Below, one piece after another: positions 19,592 through 36,860 of a stretch of 40,591 nucleotides of DNA. The notes under the pieces were generated by a model, which searched no databases, was not told the DNA's origin, and saw only the letters and a program-made list of their open reading frames with translations. Position numbers and translations under genes: made by a program. Source of the stretch: an uncultured Bacilli bacterium (lineage in GTDB: Bacteria > Bacillota_I > Bacilli_A > RF39 > UBA660); assembly GCA_944332575.1 (NCBI GenBank), contig CALVKH010000004.1, positions 1 to 40,591 of the forward strand. Reading direction: 5' to 3'. Position 1 is the stretch's first letter; every line of letters starts with the position of its first letter.

Positions 19592-19609
19592 TTACACTAG
19601 GTGAGAATG

Positions 19610-20548
19610 ATGAAGGTAAAGCAATTTAAGACTTTAGATGAACAAATTGAAATATTGAAGTATAAAGGTCTAATCATTAATGATGAAGAATATGCTAAAC
19701 AAGTTTTACTTCGTGAAAATTACTTTTTCTTGAGTGGTTATCGACATGTTTTTATGAGGCCTGATGATCCTAAGAAATATATTGAAGGCGCAACTTTTGA
19801 AGAGTTATATAGTTTATTCTTATTTGATAGACAATTTAGAAATATAATATTTAAAAATTTATTAATTATAGAAAATAATCTAAAGTCAATAATTTCTTAC
19901 CGTTTATCTAAAAAATATGGTTATAAAGAACACGATTATTTAAAACCAAAAAACTTTGATACTAGTCCAGAAAAATCAAGACAAGTAAATGATTTAATTA
20001 AAAAAATGAAAAGGCAAGTGAGAGTTAATGGTAGACAACATTCTGCAACAATGCATTACTTAAGTAATTATGGTTATATTCCACTATGGGTATTAGTAAA
20101 AGTTTTATCTTTTGGTATAGTTAGTGAATTATATTCAATACTAAGAATTGATGATAGAATAGCTATAGCTGAAATATATAGAACTGATATTGTAACTTTA
20201 AGCACTTATTTACCAATACTTTCTAACTATCGAAATTTATGTGCGCATGAAGATATTTTGTATGAAAATAAAACACAAAAGATAATAAGTAATACTATTT
20301 ATCATAAATTATTGAACATAGAAAAAGTAAATGATGAATATAAATATGGGAAAAATGATTTATTTGCTTTATTGATCATAATGAAACACTTATTAACAAA
20401 TGATGAAATAAAAAATATTGTGATTGAAATAGATCATGCATTAGAGAATTTAGATTATAATTTACATTCTATTCCAATTTCTAAAGTAATGGATCGAATG
20501 GGATTCCCTATGAATTGGAAAGATATAGCTAATATTGAAAAGGAGTGA
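19610..20548 (+). CDS. Abi_2 (AbiD/AbiF-like) abortive-infection family protein, HEPN fold
   Basis: A 312-residue protein with the Abi_2 pattern: an early FKTLDEQIEIL, then LRENYFFLSGYR; a middle LFLFDRQFRNIIFKNLLIIENNLKS-type helix; the G-Y-I-P-L-W segment; and late SNYRNLCAHED. The RNLCAH motif (Arg208, His213) is the R-x4-H active site of HEPN ribonucleases. Some Abi_2 members stop phage growth by killing or halting infected cells. Others may have house-keeping roles. ATG 19610 is preferred over 19607 because AGGTGA is 5 bases away. It lies outside the integrated element, 6 bases before the htrA-like gene, so cotranscription with the protease is likely. Confidence 0.85.
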   Translation: MKVKQFKTLDEQIEILKYKGLIINDEEYAKQVLLRENYFFLSGYRHVFMRPDDPKKYIEGATFEELYSLFLFDRQFRNIIFKNLLIIENNLKSIISYRLSKKYGYKEHDYLKPKNFDTSPEKSRQVNDLIKKMKRQVRVNGRQHSATMHYLSNYGYIPLWVLVKVLSFGIVSELYSILRIDDRIAIAEIYRTDIVTLSTYLPILSNYRNLCAHEDILYENKTQKIISNTIYHKLLNIEKVNDEYKYGKNDLFALLIIMKHLLTNDEIKNIVIEIDHALENLDYNLHSIPISKVMDRMGFPMNWKDIANIEKE

Positions 20549-21750: not shown

Positions 21751-22020
21751 ATGGATTATAAAATAGTTGTAGATGCTGGGCATGGTGGAGATGATCCTGG
21801 TGCAGTCAATGGAAATATATATGAAAAAGATTTTACATTAGAAGTATCTAAGTATATTTATGATCGTTTTAGGGAGTTAGGTGTACCAGTGGTTTTAACG
21901 AGAGATATAGATAAAACATTAGATAGAGATGATCGTGTTGATGCTATTTTATCAGCTTTTGGTAATAATCCTAACGTAATAGTTTTATCGAATCACATAA
22001 ATGCAGGAGGTCACCCTTAG
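21751..22020 (+). pseudogene. 5' fragment of LysM amidase, cut by the element
   Basis: The first 87 codons of an amidase_3 gene: DAGHGG (zinc His), the YEKDFTLE segment (zinc Glu) and SNHINAGG (zinc His). After the codon for the second Gly the frame enters element sequence and stops at TAG after two foreign codons (His-Pro), giving 89 residues. The catalytic Glu segment is missing; it is found at 35,733 onward. AGGAGG precedes the ATG, so a short, inactive product is probably still made. Amidase_3 domains need about 180 residues, so this piece should not fold normally. Confidence 0.93.
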
Positions 22021-22030
22021 CCCTCTCGAA
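21995..22030. other. Left attachment site (attL) of the element
   Basis: Chromosomal amidase sequence ends at GGT (22009-22011). Element sequence begins CACCC and then carries the arm TTAGCCCTC (22017-22025). The same GGT is found at the right junction. Confidence 0.8.
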
Positions 22031-22122
22031 GATTAAATTTATAAGGGTATTAAGACGGCTGTATTTGAACGATTGAGTTAGATAGTATAATTTACTAGAA
22101 AGATATTAAATACTGCAAAAAC

Positions 22123-22158
22123 AGCATTTATTCCTTAGATAAATGCTATTTTTTTCTT
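22123..22158 (+). terminator. Terminator just inside the left end of the element
   Basis: AGCATTTAT and ATAAATGCT form a perfect 9-bp stem with a 7-base loop and a T-rich tail. It would stop transcripts coming from the amidase promoter and insulate the cargo. The rest of 22,021-22,296 contains only this and the leader described next. Confidence 0.85.
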
Positions 22159-22236
22159 TTCAACTAAAAAATACTAAATTATTTTTAAAATACTGAAAAA
22201 AATGTCAAAATATGATAATATACATTTATAAGGATG

Positions 22237-22279
22237 AGCAGTATTTAATCTTTTTAAGATAGATACTGCTTATTTTTTA
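22237..22279 (+). promoter_or_regulatory. Terminator-like hairpin in the leader of the helicase gene
   Basis: AGCAGTAT (22237-22244) pairs with ATACTGCT (22263-22270), with an 18-base loop that is itself partly self-complementary, and is followed by TTATTTTTT. It ends about 20 bases before the start codon, after a possible -10 (TATGAT, 22211-22216). The layout suggests attenuation or protein-controlled read-through, but it could be a weak terminator alone. Confidence 0.45.
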
Positions 22280-22296
22280 GTTAGAGGTGATTTTTT

Positions 22297-24777
22297 ATGA
22301 TAGATTTAAGCAAATTAACTACTGAAAGAAAAAGTGATATTATTAATCCTTTAGCAATTTTTTCTTCCTTGCCAAATAAATCCGAAAAGTATAATGGATA
22401 CTTGAGAAATGTACAGGGTGAAGTGTTAAATCAATGGTTTGAATTAAGAAATAATAAAGATAATATAATAAAGATGAATACTGGTAGTGGAAAAACTACT
22501 GTTGCGTTGTTAATATTACAAAGTTGCTTAAATGAGCAAAAAGGCAATGCTGTTTATGTTGTTAGAGATAACTTCTTAATTCAACAAGTTAAATATGAAG
22601 CAAAAGATTTGGGGATAAAAATTGTAGAAAATGAACAGGATATTGATTTCTTAAAAAATAAAGCAATATTAGTTATTTCAATTCAGAAACTAATTAATGG
22701 AAGAACAGTATTTGATGAAAGAAATCATATTGATAATATTATTATTGATGATGTTCATGCTTGTCTAGATACTGCAGAACAGCAATTTATTATCAAAATA
22801 ATGCGTGATAAACATTCTCAATTATATGATGATATTTTTAATTTATTTAAAAGGGAACTTCAGAGACAAAACCATATTAATGCAATTAACATTGAAGATA
22901 AAATAATGGAATCTAACCCTATGCTTGTACCATTTTGGGAAGTAAAGAGTAAATATAAAAAAATATTAGAGTTTATTAATAAATATCAATATAATGAGAT
23001 ATATAATGATATTTTCTTTCCATTTTCTTTTTTGAATGATATTATTCAATACTGCAATATTTCTATAGCATATAATGTAATAGAAATTAGTCCAGATTGT
23101 TTGCCTATATATAAAGTATCTGCATTTAATGATGCTAAGCGAAGAATATTTATAAGTGCAACTTTAAAAGATGATGGTAAACTCATTAATTCATTTAATT
23201 TGGATAAGAATAATATTGAAAAAATTATTACTCCATCTCAAGCTTTAGATATAGGCAATAGAATGATATTATTTCCTCAAGCTATTAATCCTCATATTAC
23301 TGATGATGATTTGAAGCAATATCTAAAAAAAATATCACTTGATAAAAGAATAGTAGTGATTGTACCATCAAATAGAAGAGCAGAGTATTGGAAAGACGTT
23401 GCAGATCACATTTTTAATAAAGAAAATATTAAAGATATAAAGAATTATACTATTGGTCTTGATATATTGGTTAACAGATATGATGGTATTGACTTAAAAG
23501 GAAAACTATGCTCTTACTTAGTAATAGATGGATTACCAAACGCTAAAAGCCTATTTGAACAGATAACAGAATCGTTATTGTGCGATACATCAAAATCAAA
23601 TATAGATAAAATTCAAAAAATTGAGCAAGGCATGGGAAGAGGAATTAGATCTAATCAAGATGATTGTGCTGTTGTAATTATGGGAAAGCAATTATTAAAT
23701 ATAATATATAATGATAATGCATTAGAATCATTTAGTTTTTCTACAAGCATACAATATTCACTATCTGAACAAATTGCAGATCAATTAAAAAATAAACCAT
23801 TAGAAAGTATAATGAATACTTTTGACCTTTGTTTAAATAAAGACTCAGCTTGGATTACAGTTATGAACAAAGCTTTAAGTGATGTTACTATTTCCAATTC
23901 ATTAAACTACAAAGAAGAAGATTTGGAATTGAATAAAGCTTTTAATATTGCCTTAAAAGGAAACTATCAAGAATGTTTTAATATTATTCAAAAATTAGTA
24001 AATAATGAGAATACTGAACAAAAAAAAGGATATTTAATGTTTTATTTAGCAAAATATAAGTGTTTTATTGATGAAGTAGAATCTCAAAAAATCTTATTGT
24101 CTGCTAAACAATATAATAGGAATTTGATTTTACCATTGAATGGCTTTGATGTAAAGCAGAGAAAACTAAATAAAACAATTCAATCTTCTAAAATTATGAG
24201 ATTGTATAGAGAAAAATATAAGGAAGATATGCAATTGTATTTATATGCATTTGAAACGCATTTTTCAAATTTGATATTTAGTGAAAATACATATAAAGAC
24301 TTTGAAAAAGCTATTAATGATGTTGGTGAGCTTTTAGGTTTTGAGGTTTCTATGCCGGATTCCGAATTTGGAGAAGGCCCAGATAATATATGGTATTTAA
24401 ATGATACAAGTTATATGATTATTGAGTGCAAAAATGAATCTCAAACAGAAACAATCAGTAAGGAATATTGTGGGCAATTATGTATGTCAGATAATTGGGC
24501 TAAAGAAAAATATGGGAATGACAATACATTTTATCCAATAATAGTACATAAAAGCAATACTTTTAGTAGACTTGCAAGTCCGAATGATAACTTTAGAATT
24601 ATTACAGAGGAAAATATAAATAAATTATCTGAAAATATTAGATTATTTTGTAATTCCATGATAAGTACATCAAGTATTAATGAACAATTGATAAATGAAT
24701 GTTTAGTTAAATATAGACTTGATTATAAAAATATAATAGATAATTATACTTCCCAGTTTATAAAAGAAAAAAACTAG
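22297..24777 (+). CDS. SF2 helicase (XPD/DinG-like motifs) fused to a PD-(D/E)XK-like nuclease domain
   Basis: An 826-residue protein. The helicase part has Walker A TGSGKTT (Lys66), a Walker B/DEAH-box variant DDVHA (Asp151-His154), motif III-like FISAT, and motif VI QGMGRGIR (Arg448, Arg451), which is closest to the XPD/DinG pattern. The middle (about 540-640) is helical. The C-terminal domain (about 670-800) has GFEVSMPDSEFGEGPDN, then IIECK; Asp696, Glu710 and Lys712 fit a PD-(D/E)XK active site, with a following Gln. It lies first in the element, 125 bases before hsdM, which has its own promoter. A role in DNA-targeting defence is inferred. I do not recognise a named system with this architecture. 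Confidence 0.75.
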   Translation: MIDLSKLTTERKSDIINPLAIFSSLPNKSEKYNGYLRNVQGEVLNQWFELRNNKDNIIKMNTGSGKTTVALLILQSCLNEQKGNAVYVVRDNFLIQQVKYEAKDLGIKIVENEQDIDFLKNKAILVISIQKLINGRTVFDERNHIDNIIIDDVHACLDTAEQQFIIKIMRDKHSQLYDDIFNLFKRELQRQNHINAINIEDKIMESNPMLVPFWEVKSKYKKILEFINKYQYNEIYNDIFFPFSFLNDIIQYCNISIAYNVIEISPDCLPIYKVSAFNDAKRRIFISATLKDDGKLINSFNLDKNNIEKIITPSQALDIGNRMILFPQAINPHITDDDLKQYLKKISLDKRIVVIVPSNRRAEYWKDVADHIFNKENIKDIKNYTIGLDILVNRYDGIDLKGKLCSYLVIDGLPNAKSLFEQITESLLCDTSKSNIDKIQKIEQGMGRGIRSNQDDCAVVIMGKQLLNIIYNDNALESFSFSTSIQYSLSEQIADQLKNKPLESIMNTFDLCLNKDSAWITVMNKALSDVTISNSLNYKEEDLELNKAFNIALKGNYQECFNIIQKLVNNENTEQKKGYLMFYLAKYKCFIDEVESQKILLSAKQYNRNLILPLNGFDVKQRKLNKTIQSSKIMRLYREKYKEDMQLYLYAFETHFSNLIFSENTYKDFEKAINDVGELLGFEVSMPDSEFGEGPDNIWYLNDTSYMIIECKNESQTETISKEYCGQLCMSDNWAKEKYGNDNTFYPIIVHKSNTFSRLASPNDNFRIITEENINKLSENIRLFCNSMISTSSINEQLINECLVKYRLDYKNIIDNYTSQFIKEKN

Positions 24778-24870: not shown

Positions 24871-24902
24871 TGTAAATGAAAGTACTAGGAGTGTGGAAGT
24901 TA

Positions 24903-26471
24903 ATGAATAATAAAAAAGAGATTGAAAGAGAAGAATTGCATAAAACTATTTGGAAAATAGCAAATGAATTAAGAGGTTCAGTAGATGGCTGGGATTTTAA
25001 ACAATATGTATTAGGTTTATTATTTTACAGATTCATTTCAGAAAATATAGAAAATTATGTTAATGAAAATCAAAGAAAAGCAGGTATTAATGATTTTAAA
25101 TATAGGAATATATCTGACGATGAAGCGTTATTGGGAAAAACACAAATATTAGAAGAAAAAGGATTATTTATTTTACCTAGTGAATTATTTTGTAATGTTA
25201 GAAAAAATGCTGATAAAAACGAAAATTTAAATGTAGTTATTTCTAATATATTTAACAATATTGAATCATCAGCTAGAGGAACTGCATCAGAAGATGATGT
25301 AAAAGGTTTATTTGATGATTTTACAATAGATAATAAATTGGGTAATACAGTTGATGAAAGAAATGAAAAACTTGTTAAATTATTAAATGCAATAGGAGAA
25401 TTGAATTTCGGAGATTATGAAGAAAATAAGATAGACTTATTTGGTGATGCTTACGAATTTTTAATGACAATGTATGCATCATCAGCAGGTAAATCAGGTG
25501 GGGAATTCTTTACTCCACAAGAAGTTGGAGAATTACTCGCTAAAATAGTAATAATGGATAAAACATCTGTTAATAAAGTATATGATCCTGCATGTGGTTC
25601 AGGTGGATTATTACTTAAATTCGCTAAGATACTTGGAAAAGAAAATGTAAGAGAAGGATTTTTCGGTCAAGAAATAAATCTTACAACATACAACTTAGCT
25701 AGAATAAATATGTTCTTACATAATATCAATTATAATAACTTTAGTATTGAAAGAGGAGATACATTAATTCATCCAGTCCATTGGAATGATGAACCATTTG
25801 ATGCAATAGTATCTAATCCTCCTTATTCAATAAAATGGGCAGGCAAGTCTAATCCACTTTTAATAAATGATGAAAGATTTGCTCCAGCAGGTGTATTAGC
25901 ACCAGAATCAAAAGCAGATTTAGCATTTACTATGCATATGTTATCATGGTTATCGCCAAAAGGTACTGCTGCTATAGTTGAGTTCCCAGGTGTACTTTAC
26001 AGAGGCGGTGCAGAACAAAAGATTAGAAAGTACATGATTGATAACAACTTTGTTGATACTGTCATTCAATTACCTTCAGATTTATTCTTTGGTACATCAA
26101 TTGCAACTTGTATTTTAGTATTAAAGAAAAATAAATTAGATAATAATATATTATTTGTAGATGCATCTAATGAATTTATTAGAAATACTAATAAAAATAA
26201 ATTATCAGAAGAAAACATTAATAATATAATTAGTTTATTAAAAGATAGAAAATCAGTTGAAAATAAATCCTATTTAGCTACATATGAAGAAATCAAAGAT
26301 AATGATTATAATATATCAGTTAATTCTTACTTAAGAACAAATACTGAAGATAAAAAAATAGATATAAATGAAGTAAATAGAAAACTTGCTGAAATTGTGC
26401 CTAGACAACAACAAATTAGAGAAGAACTAGAAGAGATAATTAAAGAACTTGAGGTTGACTATCATGAGTAA
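24903..26471 (+). CDS. hsdM: Type I restriction-modification system, DNA methyltransferase subunit
   Basis: A 522-residue N6-adenine methyltransferase. An N-terminal helical domain (W-D-F-K-Q-Y-V-L-G-L-L-F-Y-R-F, about residues 20-40) contacts HsdS. The AdoMet site is DPACGSGG (from Asp228), and catalytic motif IV is NPPY (305-308). A C-terminal coiled tail (R-Q-Q-Q-I-R-E-E-L-E) completes the usual HsdM layout. Two HsdM and one HsdS form the methylase; with HsdR they form the restriction complex. AGGAGTG stands 9 bases before the start. The stop overlaps the hsdS start in the sequence ATGAGTAA. Confidence 0.96.
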   Translation: MNNKKEIEREELHKTIWKIANELRGSVDGWDFKQYVLGLLFYRFISENIENYVNENQRKAGINDFKYRNISDDEALLGKTQILEEKGLFILPSELFCNVRKNADKNENLNVVISNIFNNIESSARGTASEDDVKGLFDDFTIDNKLGNTVDERNEKLVKLLNAIGELNFGDYEENKIDLFGDAYEFLMTMYASSAGKSGGEFFTPQEVGELLAKIVIMDKTSVNKVYDPACGSGGLLLKFAKILGKENVREGFFGQEINLTTYNLARINMFLHNINYNNFSIERGDTLIHPVHWNDEPFDAIVSNPPYSIKWAGKSNPLLINDERFAPAGVLAPESKADLAFTMHMLSWLSPKGTAAIVEFPGVLYRGGAEQKIRKYMIDNNFVDTVIQLPSDLFFGTSIATCILVLKKNKLDNNILFVDASNEFIRNTNKNKLSEENINNIISLLKDRKSVENKSYLATYEEIKDNDYNISVNSYLRTNTEDKKIDINEVNRKLAEIVPRQQQIREELEEIIKELEVDYHE

Positions 26472-27615
26472 GATAAATGATTTAATAAAAGAAATGTGTC
26501 CTAATGGGGTTGAATTTAAAAAGTTAGAAGATTGTTGTAATATTTTAGATAACAAAAGAAAACCGATTAGTAAAGGCATAAGAGAGATGGGAGAATATCC
26601 TTATTATGGTGCCAATGGAATTCAAGACTACATTAGTGATTATATTTTTGATGGCAAATATGTTTTAGTTGGAGAGGATGGTAGTGTTCAAACTCCTAAT
26701 GGAACACCAATTGTTAATTGGGCAATTGGTAAAATATGGGTTAATAATCATGCACACATAATTGAAGAAATAGACGGTGTATCATTAAGATATTTATATC
26801 ATTATCTTCAAATAGTTGATGTTAAGGATTTAATACATGGAAATATACCTAAGTTGAATCAAAGCAATTTTAGAAATATAAAAATAGCTGTTCCACCACT
26901 AGAAGTGCAAGAAGAAATAGTTAAAATTCTTGATAAATTTGGCGAGCTAGAGGCGGAGCTAGAGGCGGAGCTAGAGGCGAGAAAGAGTCAATACGAGTTT
27001 TGGCGTGGAAAACTTTTGAATATTGAAAATTCTAATCAACAATATATAACTTTAGGAGATATTGGTAAAGTATGTATGTGTAAGAGAATTATGAAAAACG
27101 AAACATCAGATTCTGGTGATGTACCATTCTACAAGATTGGTACATTTGGTAAACAAGCAGATGCATATATATCTTACAATATTTTTAATGATTATAAAAA
27201 AAGATTTTCTTATCCTAAAAAAGGTGAAATATTAGTTTCATGTTCCGGAACAATTGGTAGAACGGTAGTATTTGATGGTAATGATGCTTATTTTCAAGAT
27301 TCTAATATTGTATGGTTAGGCAATGATGAAAGAAGAATTTTAAATAAATTTTTATATTATTTTTATCAAACTTCTCCATGGAATATATCTGATGGTGGAA
27401 CAATTAAAAGATTATATAATAATCAGTTTATATCTGCAAAAGTACCGTTATACTCTTTAGAAGAGCAAAAAAGGATTGTTAGTACATTAGAACGTTTTGA
27501 TAAATTGATTAATGATATATCAGAAGGCCTTCCAGCAGAAATTGAGTTAAGAAAAAAACAATATGAGTATTATAGAAATAAATTATTAAATTTTGAGGAA
27601 TTATATTATGAATGA
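26464..27615 (+). CDS. hsdS: Type I restriction-modification system, specificity subunit
   Basis: A 383-residue protein with two target-recognition domains (about residues 8-140 and 195-325), each followed by a conserved helical region. These are PLEVQEEIVKILDKFG near 150 and SLEEQKRIVSTLERFD near 335, each leading into an RK-x-Q-Y-x-x-x-R-x-K-L-L block. Between the halves are three perfect copies of Glu-Leu-Glu-Ala (161-172). This linker sets the distance between the two half-sites read in the DNA. The start overlaps hsdM and the end overlaps the next gene, each by 8 bases. There is no second hsdS copy, so no shuffling system is evident. Confidence 0.95.
   Translation: MSKINDLIKEMCPNGVEFKKLEDCCNILDNKRKPISKGIREMGEYPYYGANGIQDYISDYIFDGKYVLVGEDGSVQTPNGTPIVNWAIGKIWVNNHAHIIEEIDGVSLRYLYHYLQIVDVKDLIHGNIPKLNQSNFRNIKIAVPPLEVQEEIVKILDKFGELEAELEAELEARKSQYEFWRGKLLNIENSNQQYITLGDIGKVCMCKRIMKNETSDSGDVPFYKIGTFGKQADAYISYNIFNDYKKRFSYPKKGEILVSCSGTIGRTVVFDGNDAYFQDSNIVWLGNDERRILNKFLYYFYQTSPWNISDGGTIKRLYNNQFISAKVPLYSLEEQKRIVSTLERFDKLINDISEGLPAEIELRKKQYEYYRNKLLNFEELYYE
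26944..26979 (+). repeat. Three perfect 12-bp tandem repeats in the hsdS spacer
   Basis: The unit GAGCTAGAGGCG occurs three times with no mismatch. It is GC-rich (8 of 12) in a very AT-rich gene. It codes for Glu-Leu-Glu-Ala in the central linker, like the Thr-Ala-Glu-Leu repeats of the EcoR124 HsdS family. Confidence 0.95.
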
Positions 27616-28744
27616 TTTATTAGATGGTAAACTAGTCTATGATTTGAGAGATGTTATTAATAAAACTAATATCTTTGTTGCGGATGTTAACGAGAAAGAA
27701 AAGTATAATTTAATATGTGCAGTTATGGATCAGTTTGATAATTCGGTAATATATCTTAATTCACATCAAAATATTCCGTTATCTGAAGATGAGATAATAA
27801 TACTTTTTCATCATTTTTGCATTATTAGAGATGGAATTAAAGTTGTTTCAAATATTTTGAATATAGATAATAAACCTACAAATATTTTTCAAAGTTATTG
27901 TCAAAAAGAACCATATCTAATACCTAAAGATGAATATAAAGGTGATGATAAATTTTTTGATTATCTTAGATCTTTGTTCTTTGCTCATCCATTTATTACC
28001 GATAGATCTATTCCCAATCCTATTAAGGGAGAAGTTCAATATAGTCCTTATATTTTGAATAATAAAATGAAAATTTTTCCCGACCAAAAAGATTCGATTG
28101 GTGTAATGGTCTATAGTAATAAAAGAGATATGTTTCACATTTGTATTAAGTTTGATGATTTAAAAGAATATATTAGACTTAAATTTGAAAAGATTAACAA
28201 TATAATTAATGCATTTCAAGAGATTATTGATGGTAAAGAGAAGAAATGGTCTAGTAGAAAAGTAAATAGAAATCAAGACAATAATGCAATTTTACTAGAT
28301 GTTATTGATATCTTGAATGAAAGATATCTGGATGATTCTAATATAAAAGAATTATATAATTATTTGACTTGTGACATATTTGATGAATCAAATTTTGAAA
28401 TAGTAAACAAATATAGGAAAATAATAGTTAAGATAATACCAGCTATTTGTGATTGCATAGACAATATGGATTATGATGGGTTATATCAAATAACTGATCC
28501 TATACTTAATCCTCATTTAAAAGAAATATATCCTATGATGCATTACCAATTGGAAAAGATATATTGTTATTTAAATGATGATGGTTATGGAGATATTTAT
28601 TGGGGATTAACACAAGCAGATCTTTTTTCTAAAGAATTTGCAAAAGATTGGGTTAATATTAGTATCGTTGGTATGAGTTTTACTGAGATAAAATTACTAG
28701 TGACAATTGCCTGTTATTACCAAGCACAAAAAGAGGTGAATTAA
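27608..28744 (+). CDS. Unrecognised protein with HEPN-type motif, inside the hsd operon
   Basis: A 378-residue protein of no family I can name. The N-terminal third is helical and ends in FFDYLRSLFFAHP, where Arg121-x5-His127 followed by Pro matches the R-x4-6-H catalytic motif of HEPN ribonucleases. The remainder has a short beta region (about 140-180) and then helices, with no P-loop or methylase motif. Its start overlaps the hsdS stop by 8 bases and its stop touches the hsdR start, so it is a full member of the operon. In the E. coli prr locus, prrC (a HEPN-type anticodon nuclease) lies in this same place. The HEPN call rests on one motif and helical context. Confidence 0.6.
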   Translation: MNDLLDGKLVYDLRDVINKTNIFVADVNEKEKYNLICAVMDQFDNSVIYLNSHQNIPLSEDEIIILFHHFCIIRDGIKVVSNILNIDNKPTNIFQSYCQKEPYLIPKDEYKGDDKFFDYLRSLFFAHPFITDRSIPNPIKGEVQYSPYILNNKMKIFPDQKDSIGVMVYSNKRDMFHICIKFDDLKEYIRLKFEKINNIINAFQEIIDGKEKKWSSRKVNRNQDNNAILLDVIDILNERYLDDSNIKELYNYLTCDIFDESNFEIVNKYRKIIVKIIPAICDCIDNMDYDGLYQITDPILNPHLKEIYPMMHYQLEKIYCYLNDDGYGDIYWGLTQADLFSKEFAKDWVNISIVGMSFTEIKLLVTIACYYQAQKEVN

Positions 28745-31700
28745 ATGACTAATATAGGATTAATAAGTGAAAATGATAATTCTACTGTACTTGCTGAGTA
28801 TAAAGGATTAAATAAAATAGAAACATCTTTTCAAAGTGAAGATGCTCTTGAAAAAGAATTAATTAAAACTTTAGTTGAACAAGGATATGAAAGATTAAAT
28901 ATTAACTCTGAAAATGAATTAATTCTTAATTTAAGAAAACAACTTGAAAAACTTAATAATTATCATTTTACTGATGGAGAATGGGATGATTTCTTTACTA
29001 GAGTAATAGCAAATAAGAACGATTATATAATAGAAAAGACAAGACTTATTCAAGAAGATTATAAACAAGAAATAACTCTTGATTCAGGTGAAAAGAAAAA
29101 TATCTATTTAATAGATAAAAATAATATTCATAACAATAGTCTTCAAGTGTTAAATCAGTATGTTAATAATGATGGTAACTTTGATAATAGATATGATGTA
29201 ACCATTTTAGTTAATGGTCTACCTTTAGTTCATGTTGAATTAAAGAAAAGAGGAATAGATTTAAGAGAAGCTTTCAATCAAATAGAGAGATATCAAAGAG
29301 ATTCTTTCTGGGCAGGATCAGGATTATATAACTTTGTTCAAATATTTGTTATATCAAATGGAACATTAACTAAGTATTATTCAAATACAACAAGAGAGTT
29401 TCATATTAATAATCAAAAGAAAAAGAAATCTAACTCATTTGAATTTACTTCATATTGGGCAGATCAAAAAAATAATGGCATTACCGATTTAATAGATTTT
29501 GCTAAAACTTTCTTTACTAAACATACTTTATTAAATATATTAACTAAATATTGTGTATTTACTTCAGAAGAAGATTTATTAGTAATGCGTCCTTATCAAA
29601 TAGTTGCTACTGAAAAGATTTTAAATAGAATTAATATTGCATATAATAATAAGTTTTATGGAACTTTAAAATCAGGTGGTTATATTTGGCATACAACAGG
29701 TTCTGGAAAAACACTTACATCATTTAAAACTTCACAACTTGCTAGTAAACTAGATTTTATTGATAAAGTACTATTTGTTGTAGATAGAAAAGATTTAGAT
29801 TATCAAACAATGAAAGAATACGATAGATTTAAAGAGGGAGCAGCTAATTCTAATACCTCAACAAAAATACTAGAAGGACAATTAAATGATCCAAGTACTA
29901 AGATTATTATTACTACGATTCAAAAATTATCACAATTTATCAAGAAAAACGAGAACAGTGATGTATTTAATAAGCATGTAGTATTTATATTTGATGAATG
30001 TCATAGATCTCAATTTGGAGATATGCATAAAGCTATTATTAAAAAGTTTAATAAATACTACTTATTTGGATTTACAGGAACTCCAATATTCCCAGAGAAT
30101 GCTAGAACAATTAAAGGTATCTCTGAAACAACAGAACAAATCTTTGGAGAAAGGTTACATACTTATACAATAGTAAATGCTATTGCTGATAAGAATGTAT
30201 TACCATTTAGATATGAATATGTTGGAAGAATTGATATTCGTGATGGTGTTCAAGATGAAAAAGTATATAATATTGATGAAGAAAAACTATTTGATAATCA
30301 AATTAGAATTTCTATGATTACAGATTACATAATAGAGCATTTTAGTACAAAAACTAAGACATCAGAAAGTTATGTTTACTCAACTTTAGATAATGTTTCT
30401 GTAGTGGCTAAAAAGCAAGATGCAGAAGAAATTAAGTCTAAGAAGAATATTAATGGTTTTAATTCATTATTTGCTGTATCAAGCATTAAAATGGCTAAAG
30501 AATACTATGCTGAATTTAAGAAACAGTTGGATATTAAAAAGAGTAATCTTAAAGTAGCTATAATATATTCTTATGGTGTTAATGGAGAAGATGGGGTAAT
30601 TGATGAAAACTCTGAATCAACAGAAGCATTAAGTACAGATGATAGAACATTCTTAGAAAATGCTATTAAGGATTATAATAATATGTTTGGAACAAGTTAT
30701 GATACATCATCAGAAAAATTCCAAAATTACTATAAAGATGTATCTCTAAGAATGAAAAATAGAGAAATAGATATATTAATCGTTGCTAATATGTTTTTAA
30801 CAGGTTTTGATGCAAAAACATTAAATACATTATGGGTTGATAAGAATTTAAAATGGCACGGATTAATTCAAGCTTTCTCAAGAACTAACAGGATCTTAAA
30901 TAGTGTAAAAACATATGGTAATATAGTTTCATTTAGAAATTTAGAAGATAGACTTAATGAAGCACTTGCTAAATTTGGTGATGAGGAAGCTCATGGAATA
31001 GTTTTATTAAAGCCATATAAAGACTACTATTATGGATATGAAGATGATAATGGCAAAACATTTGAGGGCTATAAATCTTTAGTTGAAAAGTTAACTTCTA
31101 AATTTGCACCAGGAGAACTAATGCAAAGCGAAGCAGAACAAAAAGAATTTATTAAGCTATATGGTGCAATATTAAAGGTAACAAATATATTATCATCGTT
31201 TGATGAATTCAAGAATGAAGAGTTAATTAGTGAAAGAGATAAACAAGACTATCATAGCATTTATATTGAACTTTATAATGAATTTAGAAATAAAGCTAAA
31301 CAAGAAAGAACTGATGTTACTGAAGATGTAGTATTTGAAATGGAATTAATAAAATCTATTGAGGTTAATATTGATTACATTTTAGGACTAGTTAAAAAAT
31401 ATCACGATTCTAATATGGAAGATAAAGAAATTCTTATAACTATTCAAAAGACTATTATGGCAAGTCCAGATTTAAGAAATAAGAAAGATCTAATTATGGC
31501 ATTTATTGAATCATTAGATCAAGATTCAAATGTATATGCTGATTTTGAATCATTTATGGATAGTAAAAAGAAAGAAGAATTAGATAAAATAATTGCTGAA
31601 GAAAATCTTAACAAAGAAGAAACATACAGTTTTATTCAAAAATCATTTGAACAAGGAAGAGTAGAAACAAATGGTACTGAAGTATCGTCAATTCTTCCAC

Positions 31701-31813
31701 CTATGAACATGTTTACTCCTACAAATGATAGACAAGAAAAGAAAAATAATGTTATAGATAAATTATTAGATTTTTTTAATAAGTTCTTTAATATCTCAAG
31801 TAGTAAGTTTTAG
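28745..31813 (+). CDS. hsdR: Type I restriction-modification system, endonuclease/translocase subunit
   Basis: A 1022-residue restriction subunit. The N-terminal nuclease domain has Asp151, then Glu165-x-Lys167 in VHVELKK, and a Q-I-E-R-Y motif. The SF2 motor follows, with Walker A TTGSGKT (Lys322), the DECH box (417-420), GFTGTP and a late QAFSRTNR motif. A C-terminal helical domain binds the methylase. HsdR cuts unmethylated DNA after ATP-driven translocation. ATG directly follows the preceding TAA, with AGAGGTG upstream. The length is usual and all motifs are intact, so the system looks active. Confidence 0.96.
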   Translation: MTNIGLISENDNSTVLAEYKGLNKIETSFQSEDALEKELIKTLVEQGYERLNINSENELILNLRKQLEKLNNYHFTDGEWDDFFTRVIANKNDYIIEKTRLIQEDYKQEITLDSGEKKNIYLIDKNNIHNNSLQVLNQYVNNDGNFDNRYDVTILVNGLPLVHVELKKRGIDLREAFNQIERYQRDSFWAGSGLYNFVQIFVISNGTLTKYYSNTTREFHINNQKKKKSNSFEFTSYWADQKNNGITDLIDFAKTFFTKHTLLNILTKYCVFTSEEDLLVMRPYQIVATEKILNRINIAYNNKFYGTLKSGGYIWHTTGSGKTLTSFKTSQLASKLDFIDKVLFVVDRKDLDYQTMKEYDRFKEGAANSNTSTKILEGQLNDPSTKIIITTIQKLSQFIKKNENSDVFNKHVVFIFDECHRSQFGDMHKAIIKKFNKYYLFGFTGTPIFPENARTIKGISETTEQIFGERLHTYTIVNAIADKNVLPFRYEYVGRIDIRDGVQDEKVYNIDEEKLFDNQIRISMITDYIIEHFSTKTKTSESYVYSTLDNVSVVAKKQDAEEIKSKKNINGFNSLFAVSSIKMAKEYYAEFKKQLDIKKSNLKVAIIYSYGVNGEDGVIDENSESTEALSTDDRTFLENAIKDYNNMFGTSYDTSSEKFQNYYKDVSLRMKNREIDILIVANMFLTGFDAKTLNTLWVDKNLKWHGLIQAFSRTNRILNSVKTYGNIVSFRNLEDRLNEALAKFGDEEAHGIVLLKPYKDYYYGYEDDNGKTFEGYKSLVEKLTSKFAPGELMQSEAEQKEFIKLYGAILKVTNILSSFDEFKNEELISERDKQDYHSIYIELYNEFRNKAKQERTDVTEDVVFEMELIKSIEVNIDYILGLVKKYHDSNMEDKEILITIQKTIMASPDLRNKKDLIMAFIESLDQDSNVYADFESFMDSKKKEELDKIIAEENLNKEETYSFIQKSFEQGRVETNGTEVSSILPPMNMFTPTNDRQEKKNNVIDKLLDFFNKFFNISSSKF

Positions 31814-33082: not shown

Positions 33083-34747
33083 ATGAATAATAACTTAATT
33101 GGTAAAGATTTCAATACTGGAATCTATATAAGATTATCTCAAGAAGATAAAGACAAAAAATATGAATCTGATAGTGAAAGTGTAATTAATCAAAGAGAAT
33201 TATTAAGAAGTTATGTAAATAGTAATAATTTTAATCTAGTTGGAGAATATATTGATGATGGATTTTCTGGAACTGATTTTGAAAGACCTGGATTTCAAAA
33301 ATTACTTGATGACATAAAGAACAAAAAGATAAATTGTGTAGTAGTAAAGGATCTATCAAGATTGGGTAGAGATCATGTTATGACAGGATATTATATGGAA
33401 TCATTCTTTCCTGAAAATAATATTAGATTTATTTCAATACTTGAAGCTTATGATAGTTTTAAAAATCAAGCAAGTAATGATTCTTCAACATTTATAATGG
33501 CTTGTAATGATTATTATAGTAAACAAAATTCAATTAAGATTAGAAATGTTTTAAATGAAAAAAGAAAAAATGGTAAATTTGTTGGAAGTTTACCATGCTT
33601 TGGTTATATGCGAGATCCGGAAGATAAAGGTCATTTAACTCCTGATCCTGTAACTGCTCCAATAGTAAAAAAGATATTTGAATGGAGAAAAAATGGAATA
33701 GGACCATCTAGAATAGCAACTATGTTAAATGAAAAGGGATATCCTACTCCTAGTGGCTACAAAGGAACAAAATATTCAACTAGACTGATAAATAGAAACA
33801 CTTGGAATATTTCTTCTATAAAGAAAATCTTATCAAATAGAATATATACAGGTGATATGATACAACATACACAAACAAAGGTTAATTACAAATCAAAGAA
33901 AAAAATAACGTTAGATAAAAGTTTGTGGATGGTAGTAGAAAATACACATGAACCATTAGTTAGTAAAGATACATTTGAATACATTTCTAAGTTGATAAAA
34001 CAAAATACAAAAGATGTACAACCAAAAAACAGAAGAGAGAAAAGACTATTGGAAGGTAAGTTATTTTGCAAGGAATGTGGCAATAGACTTAGTGTTCTAT
34101 ATAGAAAAAATCATGATTATTGGACTGTTAATTGTAATAGGTATGCAAGAGATCCAATTAGAGAACAATGCCAATCTCATTTTTTTCCATATAATTATCT
34201 AGAAGATCAAATAATGGAAAAATTTATTAAGGATATATCAGTACAATTAAATAATTTGGATTTAAAAGAACTTAATAAAACGGTACAACGAGAAGTGGAA
34301 AAGCAAACAAAAACTTTAGATAATAACATAAATAAGTTGTTAAGTGAAAAAGAAAGCATTACAAAGAGATTAACATCTTTATATGAAGACAAATATAATG
34401 AAGTTATTACTATTGATACTTATAAGGAGTTAGCTAAACCATATGAAGGAAAATTAAAAGAAATAAATTTAAGTATAGATAATAATCAAATGAGAAAATA
34501 TGAAGTAAAATGTAAATTAAATGAATTACCTGATTATACTAAAAAAATAAAAAGACTATTAGATTTAAATAAACCAAAAAAAGAATTAGTTCATTCGTTG
34601 ATAGATAGAATAGTTATTAATAAGGACAGAGTAATAACAATACAGTATAAGTATGGAGTAATACCTGATAATACTTTTACATATAAAAATTTAAATTTAA
34701 CTCGAAATCCTTATGGTAGAAAAGGTAAGAATCAATATAGTAAATAA
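33083..34747 (+). CDS. Large serine recombinase (TnpX/TndX-type integrase)
   Basis: A 554-residue site-specific recombinase. The resolvase-type catalytic domain (about 12-150) has Ser19 in YIRLSQED and D-L-S-R-L-G-R-D. The recombinase domain (about 170-290) has the G-Y-P-T-P-S-G motif. A zinc ribbon starts at Cys329 and Cys332 with a second Cys pair near residues 351-363. A coiled-coil region (about 385-440) and a short C-terminal DUF4368-like end follow. These enzymes integrate and excise elements between short att sites with a 2-bp core. AAAGGAGG precedes the ATG. It lies about 1 kb from the right end and is the likely agent of insertion into the amidase gene. Confidence 0.95.
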   Translation: MNNNLIGKDFNTGIYIRLSQEDKDKKYESDSESVINQRELLRSYVNSNNFNLVGEYIDDGFSGTDFERPGFQKLLDDIKNKKINCVVVKDLSRLGRDHVMTGYYMESFFPENNIRFISILEAYDSFKNQASNDSSTFIMACNDYYSKQNSIKIRNVLNEKRKNGKFVGSLPCFGYMRDPEDKGHLTPDPVTAPIVKKIFEWRKNGIGPSRIATMLNEKGYPTPSGYKGTKYSTRLINRNTWNISSIKKILSNRIYTGDMIQHTQTKVNYKSKKKITLDKSLWMVVENTHEPLVSKDTFEYISKLIKQNTKDVQPKNRREKRLLEGKLFCKECGNRLSVLYRKNHDYWTVNCNRYARDPIREQCQSHFFPYNYLEDQIMEKFIKDISVQLNNLDLKELNKTVQREVEKQTKTLDNNINKLLSEKESITKRLTSLYEDKYNEVITIDTYKELAKPYEGKLKEINLSIDNNQMRKYEVKCKLNELPDYTKKIKRLLDLNKPKKELVHSLIDRIVINKDRVITIQYKYGVIPDNTFTYKNLNLTRNPYGRKGKNQYSK

Positions 34748-34788: not shown

Positions 34789-34829
34789 GCTATAAAAGAA
34801 TATAATAGTAAGCCAAGAGGGTGATTAGC

Positions 34830-35699
34830 ATGAAATATATAAGAATAATATTACTTTGGTTATGTATTTTTATTATATTTTTATTATGTCCATGGTTTTT
34901 AGATAAGATAGCAAATTTTCTAATATGTATAGGAATAATTGATTATTGTTCTAAAAGTTCATATTTATCATTTTATTCAACAATTATTGGTGGTGCAATA
35001 ACCCTTATAGGTGTTTGGATAACTTTAATAAATGATAGAAAATCAAAAAAGAATGATGATAGTATAAAATATAAACCCATATTAAGAGTTTATGGAATTA
35101 ATAAACAAGATAATTGTCTTTTGAGAGAAGTTCATTTCAATATGCCATTTAGTTGTAGAAATGATGATCCTGAATCTGAAAAAAAACAGGAATTGTTTTA
35201 TAAACAAACTAAAAGTACAAAGCCTTTATTTAGAATAATATTTAAAAATATCGGTAGAGGTGAAACATATAATGCGTTACTTGAAAAAGCAGAAATTAGT
35301 AATGTAAGTTGGGACGATAAATCAAATCTTAGTTTTTCTGGTGGTTGGAATCAATATGTTGGTGAAATATGTCAAAATGAATTATTTGGAGTAGATTTTT
35401 ATTTACCACAACATTTGTTTATAACAGAAGATTTAAATGGAAGATATTATCATAAAATATGTATAAATTTAATTGTTAACTACAGCGACATGTTCAACAG
35501 AGTAAAATACCAAGACATTATACATATTAAATTAAAAGTTATAATTGATAAAATTCAAGAAAAAGAGCCATATTATTATAAAGATAATTTTAAATGGGCT
35601 AAGGTAGGGTATGAAATAATGGAAATACTACCTCAACATAATATTTATTCTGAAAAAAAGAAAAAGTATATTCACGAAGCTTTAATAAATAACAAATAA
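34830..35699 (+). CDS. Membrane protein of unknown function at the element's right end
   Basis: A 289-residue protein. The N-terminus has hydrophobic segments at about residues 5-22 and 24-38 and another at about 46-66, followed by a cytosolic domain of about 220 residues with mixed alpha/beta character (KPLFRIIFKNIGRGETYN, VGEICQNELFGVDFYLP). No motif is recognised. ATG 34,830 is preferred because AAGAGG lies 9 bases upstream; an in-frame GTG at 34,821 directly follows it. A TATAAT at 34,801-34,806 may be its -10. It lies between the recombinase and attR, a common place for cargo, so a defence or exclusion role is possible but unproven. Confidence 0.6.
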   Translation: MKYIRIILLWLCIFIIFLLCPWFLDKIANFLICIGIIDYCSKSSYLSFYSTIIGGAITLIGVWITLINDRKSKKNDDSIKYKPILRVYGINKQDNCLLREVHFNMPFSCRNDDPESEKKQELFYKQTKSTKPLFRIIFKNIGRGETYNALLEKAEISNVSWDDKSNLSFSGGWNQYVGEICQNELFGVDFYLPQHLFITEDLNGRYYHKICINLIVNYSDMFNRVKYQDIIHIKLKVIIDKIQEKEPYYYKDNFKWAKVGYEIMEILPQHNIYSEKKKKYIHEALINNK

Positions 35700-35710
35700 T
35701 GCAGTAATCC

Positions 35711-35750
35711 TTGTGAGGGCTAATTTTGTGGTGGAGAAGGCGCAGAAGTA
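35711..35750. other. Right attachment site (attR) of the element
   Basis: The element arm GAGGGCTAA (35715-35723) is followed by TTTTGTG and the shared GGT (35730-35732), after which the amidase frame resumes. The arm is the inverted copy of the left arm at 22,017-22,025. Confidence 0.8.
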
Positions 35751-36860
35751 ATTTATGCTCTTAGAAATGATTCGACTTTAGCTAAAAGTGTTTTAGAGTC
35801 AATTGGTGCTGAAGGTCAAAAAATGAGAAAATATTATCAAAGAAGATTACCAAGTGATACTTCAAAAGATTATTATTATATACATAGATTAACTGGTAAT
35901 ACTCAACCATTACTTATTGAATATGGTTTTATTGATAATGCCAATGATCTAAAAAAACTTCAAAACAATTTGTTGGATTATGGAGAAGCAGTTGTAAGAG
36001 CAGTAGCTAATTATATAGGAGTGCCTTATACACCACCAGAAGGTTCAACTAGCAATGTTTATGTCGTACAAAAAGGTGATTCTCTTTACTCGATTGCTAG
36101 TAAATATGGAGTTACAGTCGATGAGTTAAAAAGTGCTAATAATTTAACATCTAATTTATTAACTATTGGTCAATTGTTAGTAATACCACAAACTACACCT
36201 GAAGTCACACCACCTGGAGAATATGTAGTATATACTGTAAAAAGTGGGGATACTTTATATAAAATAGCTAATCAATATGGAGTAAGTGTTAATGATATAA
36301 TTGAATTTAATCAATTACCTTCAACAGTTCTTTCCGTTAATCAACAATTATTAATACCAACTACTCCAAATACAGGTAATAATATCACGTATACGGTTAA
36401 AGCAGGAGATAGCTTATGGAAAATAGCTAATCAATATGGTATTACTGTTGATGAATTAATACAAGCTAATAATTTAACTAATACTGTTTTGCAAATAGGG
36501 GATGTGTTAGTTATTCCAGGGACAGTTGAAGAACCAGAAGAACCATCCACACCACCATCTAGTAATGTTATTGAATATGTTGTGCAAAGTGGAGACAGTT
36601 TATATAGTATTGCTAAAAGATATGGGATTACCGCTAGTGAATTACAAAGCTACAACAATTTACCATCTACTTTGTTAAGCATAGGCCAAGTTTTAAAAAT
36701 ACCAACTACGGAGAGTTATATTACTTACTATGTAAAAAGTGGCGACAATTTATATAATATAGCTAGAACATATAATACTACAGTAGATGCTATTAGAAGG
36801 TTAAATAATTTAACATCAGATTTATTAACTATCGGTCAAGTACTTATTATTCCATCATAA
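35733..36860 (+). pseudogene. 3' fragment of LysM amidase (catalytic end plus five LysM repeats)
   Basis: The frame continues the left fragment: GEGAEVIYAL, then LLIEYGFIDN with the catalytic Glu, to about residue 105 of this piece. Five LysM peptidoglycan-binding repeats follow (pattern Y-x-V-x-x-G-D-S-L-Y-x-I-A...G-x-x-L-x-I-P) with Pro/Thr-rich linkers after the first, second and third. The intact gene would encode 462 residues. A TAA lies four codons upstream of the junction, so no start from the element reads in. The first ATG is 35,823, with GAAGG 7 bases before it; a LysM-only product is conceivable but would lack the zinc site. Confidence 0.93.

Follow-up and report, generated by a model that had tools for sequence, protein, structure and literature searches.

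Hna, the 'helicase-nuclease abortive infection' protein of S. meliloti, is the closest described relative of the gene considered here, and is known from Sather et al. 2023 (Cell Host Microbe, through its account in PMC12445080), from a more recent structural and biochemical study (Nat Commun 2026, PMC13381803) and from PDB entries 10UJ, 9YHN and 9YKJ. In this literature, the megaplasmid-borne S. meliloti hna by itself suffices to restore resistance, Hna is likened to ExoDinG, extensive horizontal transfer of the gene is stated, and the family paper expects diverse triggers. The S. meliloti protein is a Mg2+-dependent 3'-5' single-stranded DNA (ssDNA) exonuclease with undetectable unwinding; ATP inhibits it via a dimer, and a phage single-stranded DNA-binding protein (SSB) releases the nuclease, whose activity is toxic to the cell. 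We analysed a gene on the forward strand of a 40,591-nucleotide stretch from an uncultured Bacilli bacterium (contig CALVKH010000004.1; the whole stretch is referred to as the window), which in all likelihood encodes a single-protein abortive-infection defence of the Hna family.

The gene is an intact open reading frame of 826 amino acids (aa), running from an ATG at 22297 to a stop at 24777, and the reverse strand of the same interval is interrupted by stops throughout. The original prediction, made from the DNA letters, described the product as a DinG/XPD-type superfamily 2 (SF2) helicase fused to a C-terminal PD-(D/E)XK nuclease, assigned it to defence, and found no match to a named system. 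Architecture and defence role were both right, the gene being an hna homologue on an element that carries defence genes, next to a type I restriction-modification (R-M) system; the missing name was an error, since the protein is a full-length member of a family whose structure has been solved and whose mechanism is published. PADLOC model PDLC04986 (system PDC-S28, which also comprises PDLC04987) matched residues 1–823 with 871 bits and the S. meliloti Hna sequence, likewise over its full length, with 1007 bits, so that PDC-S28 and Hna are one family, and no difference of note separates the window protein from it. A phmmer search against PDB returned one significant match, 10UJ/9YHN/9YKJ (E = 1.2e-93, residues 8–820), of which 10UJ and 9YKJ are S. 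meliloti Hna and 9YHN carries the Foldseek title 'Hna Monomer'. An AlphaFold2 model built from 33 homologues (pLDDT 87.1) superposed on 9YHN with TM scores of 0.89/0.90 and Z 37.5, with 791 residues at 2.5 Å. The second-best structural family was DinG (Z 23.6, 449 residues); DinG, CasDinG and XPD helicases share the fold of the helicase half (Z 21–24), but the match is limited to residues about 12–520 and sequence scores lie far under the family cut-offs. The claimed novelty falls because the prediction itself held that membership of a known named family would remove it. This is a known family, correctly observed, and its interest lies in a divergent dimer loop and an insertion hotspot rather than in a new helicase-nuclease design; an apparently unnamed helicase-nuclease is settled as Hna, and a PADLOC candidate is merged with it.

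Residue conservation was assessed in a 90-row MAFFT alignment, in which the genome homologues are the 80 that, out of 361, most resemble the window protein, and the S. meliloti side is under-represented. All motifs quoted in the prediction sit where it placed them (GSGKTT at 63, DDVHA at 151, FISAT at 285, QGMGRGIR at 444), as do the single residues K66, D696, E710, C711 and K712; GPDN lies at 694 and IECK at 709. Walker A, the DExH-type motif and motif VI are intact across HEL1 and HEL2, and conservation of G63, G65, K66, D151, D152, E443, Q444, G445, G447 and R451 in 90/90 aligned homologues places these motifs far beyond chance. The ATP-site residues R37 and Q40 correspond to R36 and Q39 of S. 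meliloti Hna (Q in every row, R in 74 of the 90). No Fe-S cysteine set was found, the sole Cys between residues 66 and 151 (Walker A to motif II) being C77, and S. meliloti Hna likewise has none. While a Pfam scan matched no family to the last 170 residues, the model places a PD-(D/E)XK core there; D696, E710 and K712 are invariant in the alignment, P695 is kept in 87/90, and P695/D696/E710/K712 align with P712/D713/E727/K729 of S. meliloti Hna, which bears out the predicted nuclease domain. In S. meliloti Hna, K729A abolishes exonuclease activity and a P712A/D713A/E727A triple mutant cleaves markedly less (PMC13381803). The two proteins are alike in length (826 versus 845 aa), in the HEL1-HEL2-NUC fold, in SF2 motifs, and in nuclease and ATP-site residues.

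The core chemistry should be shared with S. meliloti Hna, and by homology with that protein the direction of digestion, the inhibition by ATP, the triggering by SSB and an abortive outcome would apply here also. In an uninfected cell, the SF2 motor would bind ATP and hold the C-terminal PD-(D/E)XK domain inactive. During infection, a phage factor (for S. meliloti Hna, an SSB) or exposed 3' ssDNA would free the nuclease, which would then degrade ssDNA in the 3'-5' direction, so that phage replication would fail and the cell would die or stop growing. Hachiman (HamAB) resembles this scheme in that a helicase controls a nuclease with an abortive outcome, but it consists of two proteins, and neither the HamA nuclease family nor HamB is among the families matched by the window protein.

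Several points weigh against a simple assignment to Hna as experimentally described. Identity to the tested S. meliloti protein is only 28–29%. Its dimer-loop residues T30/D31/P34 correspond to S29/E30/Y35 in the window protein, although T30 and D31 lie in a region with many gaps and pair with different residues from one alignment to another; the P34 position is occupied by Tyr in 69/90 homologues and by Pro in only two, S. meliloti Hna itself and a copy on a Salmonella integrative and conjugative element (ICE). In the tree of the 90 sequences, S. meliloti Hna forms an outlying, long-branched clade deep in the tree with that ICE copy and a Lysinibacillus plasmid copy, a grouping covered by the tree tool's warning that long branches may be joined falsely. 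The window protein groups with two Bacilli/Tenericutes homologues (68% and 59% identity). Trigger and regulation may differ from those of S. meliloti Hna, and an autoinhibitory dimer of that type is not to be assumed, because nearly all sampled homologues, like the window protein, have not conserved the interface residues. The dimer loop is a regulatory trait of one tested member and is not taken here to define the family.

We consider it possible, if somewhat unlikely, that the protein has the Hna fold under other regulation, lacking the S. meliloti-type ATP-stabilised dimer and responding not to a T7-like phage SSB but, for example, to DNA ends or another replication protein. The divergent loop and the diversity of triggers expected for the family both speak for this; the ATP-site residues, nuclease residues and overall fold are nevertheless all kept, the loop could form a dimer through other residues, and the sampling of homologues noted above favours relatives of the window protein. 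Tentatively extended to the family, the same idea would make the window protein part of a large Hna branch without the S. meliloti dimer interface, otherwise restrained and triggered (e.g. by sensing DNA ends directly, or through another phage protein), and the published ATP-dimer/SSB switch would then apply to a side branch only. The member known in most detail sits on an outlying branch of the sampled tree, which makes a protein such as the window's a suitable one in which to examine the dimer switch.

In the window, hna is carried by a 13.7-kb serine-recombinase element in a host that its nearest homologues suggest is a small-genome, Bacilli-like bacterium, unlike the megaplasmid setting in S. 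meliloti. The prediction had called it the left-most cargo of a defence element, next to a type I system, and it is indeed the first gene inside the left junction (22009–22011), followed 3' by HsdM, HsdS and HsdR. HsdM starts only 98 bp 3' of hna on the same strand, an arrangement that would suit a protein serving solely as an accessory of the type I R-M system. Such a role is nonetheless very improbable given that a 68%-identical homologue in another genome (locus L010) has no adjoining type I genes, that plasmid homologues have varied neighbours, and that S. meliloti hna alone restored resistance. The gene had also been credited with its own leader. There is a 285-bp non-coding stretch (22012–22296) with a strong hairpin, and a separate promoter is possible; sigma-70-like promoter matches in the leader were no commoner than in shuffled sequence (25 versus 25.9). 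The hairpin may act as an attenuator or as a terminator of read-through. It was rejected as a conserved trait of the family, the mean z over 80 leaders being −0.23 and the window's hairpin the strongest among them.

Relatives were found in 249 plasmid records and at least 361 genome stretches. Single-protein patterns detected no homologue in the viral collection, and the phage set yielded one record only, a Salmonella contig with an ICE. Among the genes next to homologues were toxin-antitoxin pairs and those for a TIR protein, for a cytosine methylase accompanied by Vsr, and for ICE and transposition functions. Such a scattered occurrence on mobile DNA fits the extensive horizontal transfer stated in the literature. 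That the element instead picked up a repair enzyme of the housekeeping DinG/YoaA or ExoDinG type, with no defence role, is scarcely credible: the helicase half is DinG/XPD-like and Hna itself has been compared with ExoDinG, but NCBIfam scores for DinG and YoaA are far too low (14.6 and 23.1 bits against cut-offs of 598 and 680), Hna is by far the best match in both structure and sequence, no copy was found in the 57 relatives of the host genome searched, which speaks against a housekeeping gene, and homologues occur on plasmids, ICEs and defence-laden elements.

Besides Hna and HsdM-HsdS-(unknown)-HsdR, the element encodes a large serine recombinase and a small protein resembling replication initiators, and it splits the gene for a cell-wall LysM N-acetylmuramoyl-L-alanine amidase. 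Joining the flanks (21751–22011 with 35733–36860) restores a continuous reading frame for a 462-aa amidase that has LysM repeats, the joint reading SNHINAGG/GEGAEV. Coordinates of the main features are given in the table.

Table. Features of the hna locus and the surrounding element (positions in the window)
Feature	Position	Strand	Basis or remarks
LysM-amidase gene, 5' part	21751..22011	+	Pfam Amidase_3; joined product
Left crossover core GGT (attL)	22009..22011	+	Sequence; corresponding break at L096 and L010
Leader hairpin, about −21 kcal/mol, then T-rich stretch; directly 5' of hna ribosome-binding site	22229..22278	+	z −3.4; about −4 in the comparison of 80 leaders
hna homologue, SF2 helicase / PD-(D/E)XK nuclease, 826 aa	22297..24777	+	PADLOC, phmmer, model superposition
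HEL1, approx. residues 15–310; GSGKTT Walker A 63–68, DDVHA 151–155, FISAT 285–289	22339..23226	+	Pfam ResIII/DEAD; approximate boundaries from model
HEL2, approx. residues 311–535; motif VI EQGMGRGIR 443–451	23227..23901	+	Pfam Helicase_C_2 395–473; approximate boundaries from model
NUC, PD-(D/E)XK core: helix 666–679, strands 683–685, 697–700, 705–711, helix 722–739, strand 744–750; P695, D696, E710, C711, K712	24274..24774	+	D/E/K 90/90
HsdM, type I methyltransferase	24876..26471	+	TIGR00497 715 bits
HsdS specificity subunit	26449..27615	+	Methylase_S 8e-59
383-aa protein between HsdS and HsdR, overlaps hsdS end	27593..28744	+	No significant Pfam/NCBIfam/PADLOC/PHROG family
HsdR, EcoR124-type	28745..31813	+	PDLC03048 1138 bits, TIGR00348
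Large serine recombinase, likely element integrase	33083..34747	+	Resolvase, Recombinase, Zn_ribbon_recom; homologues in same-site elements
Right crossover core GGT (attR)	35730..35732	+	Flank comparison
LysM-amidase gene, 3' part	35733..36860	+	Joined product

At least seven further genomes of this bacterial family (G001, G007, G012, G018, G019, G023 and G024) have the amidase gene interrupted at this position, each with a recombinase 51–69% identical to that of the window between the two halves; others (e.g. G020 and G030) have it intact. The split falls at the same conserved Gly codon, and the inserted elements, related large-serine-recombinase elements of 3 to 17 kb, differ in cargo, with many defence genes among it (loci L096, L097, L108–L113 and L010). 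In the seven genomes, the site carries R-M systems of types I and II, HamA, McrBC, Mrr, a MutH-type nuclease and Fic, among others. At L010, the 68%-identical Hna is accompanied by Fic, Dam-type and C5 methylases and a MutH-type nuclease, and HtrA is present, as is part of the amidase gene with its break at the same position. Judged by these sequence comparisons, the amidase site looks like a candidate insertion hotspot for defence cargo, and the context of the element points to a recurrent insertion site through which members of this bacterial family exchange such cargo. A search of the accessible literature for the amidase insertion site found nothing relevant. Among elements that interrupt genes, skin-type elements excise from sporulation genes.

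A short inverted repeat, TTAGCCCTC / GAGGGCTAA, lies at the element ends (22012–22030 and 35700–35732) beside the GGT cores, and its two halves are likely recombinase binding arms. The 383-aa protein encoded between HsdS and HsdR has very distant full-length relatives (~20% identity), encoded by stand-alone genes on plasmids of enterobacteria and Vibrio; one of these genes adjoins AbiH and PIN-domain genes. The product of the last gene before the right element end (34821–35699) is 292 aa long, has a hydrophobic stretch at its N terminus and matched nothing in Pfam or PHROG. Outside the element, just 5' of HtrA, an AbiD/Abi_2-type abortive infection protein is encoded at 19601–20548 (PADLOC AbiD, 215 bits), and a tblastx match at positions 1–411 of L010 suggests that the AbiD-HtrA pair is conserved there also.
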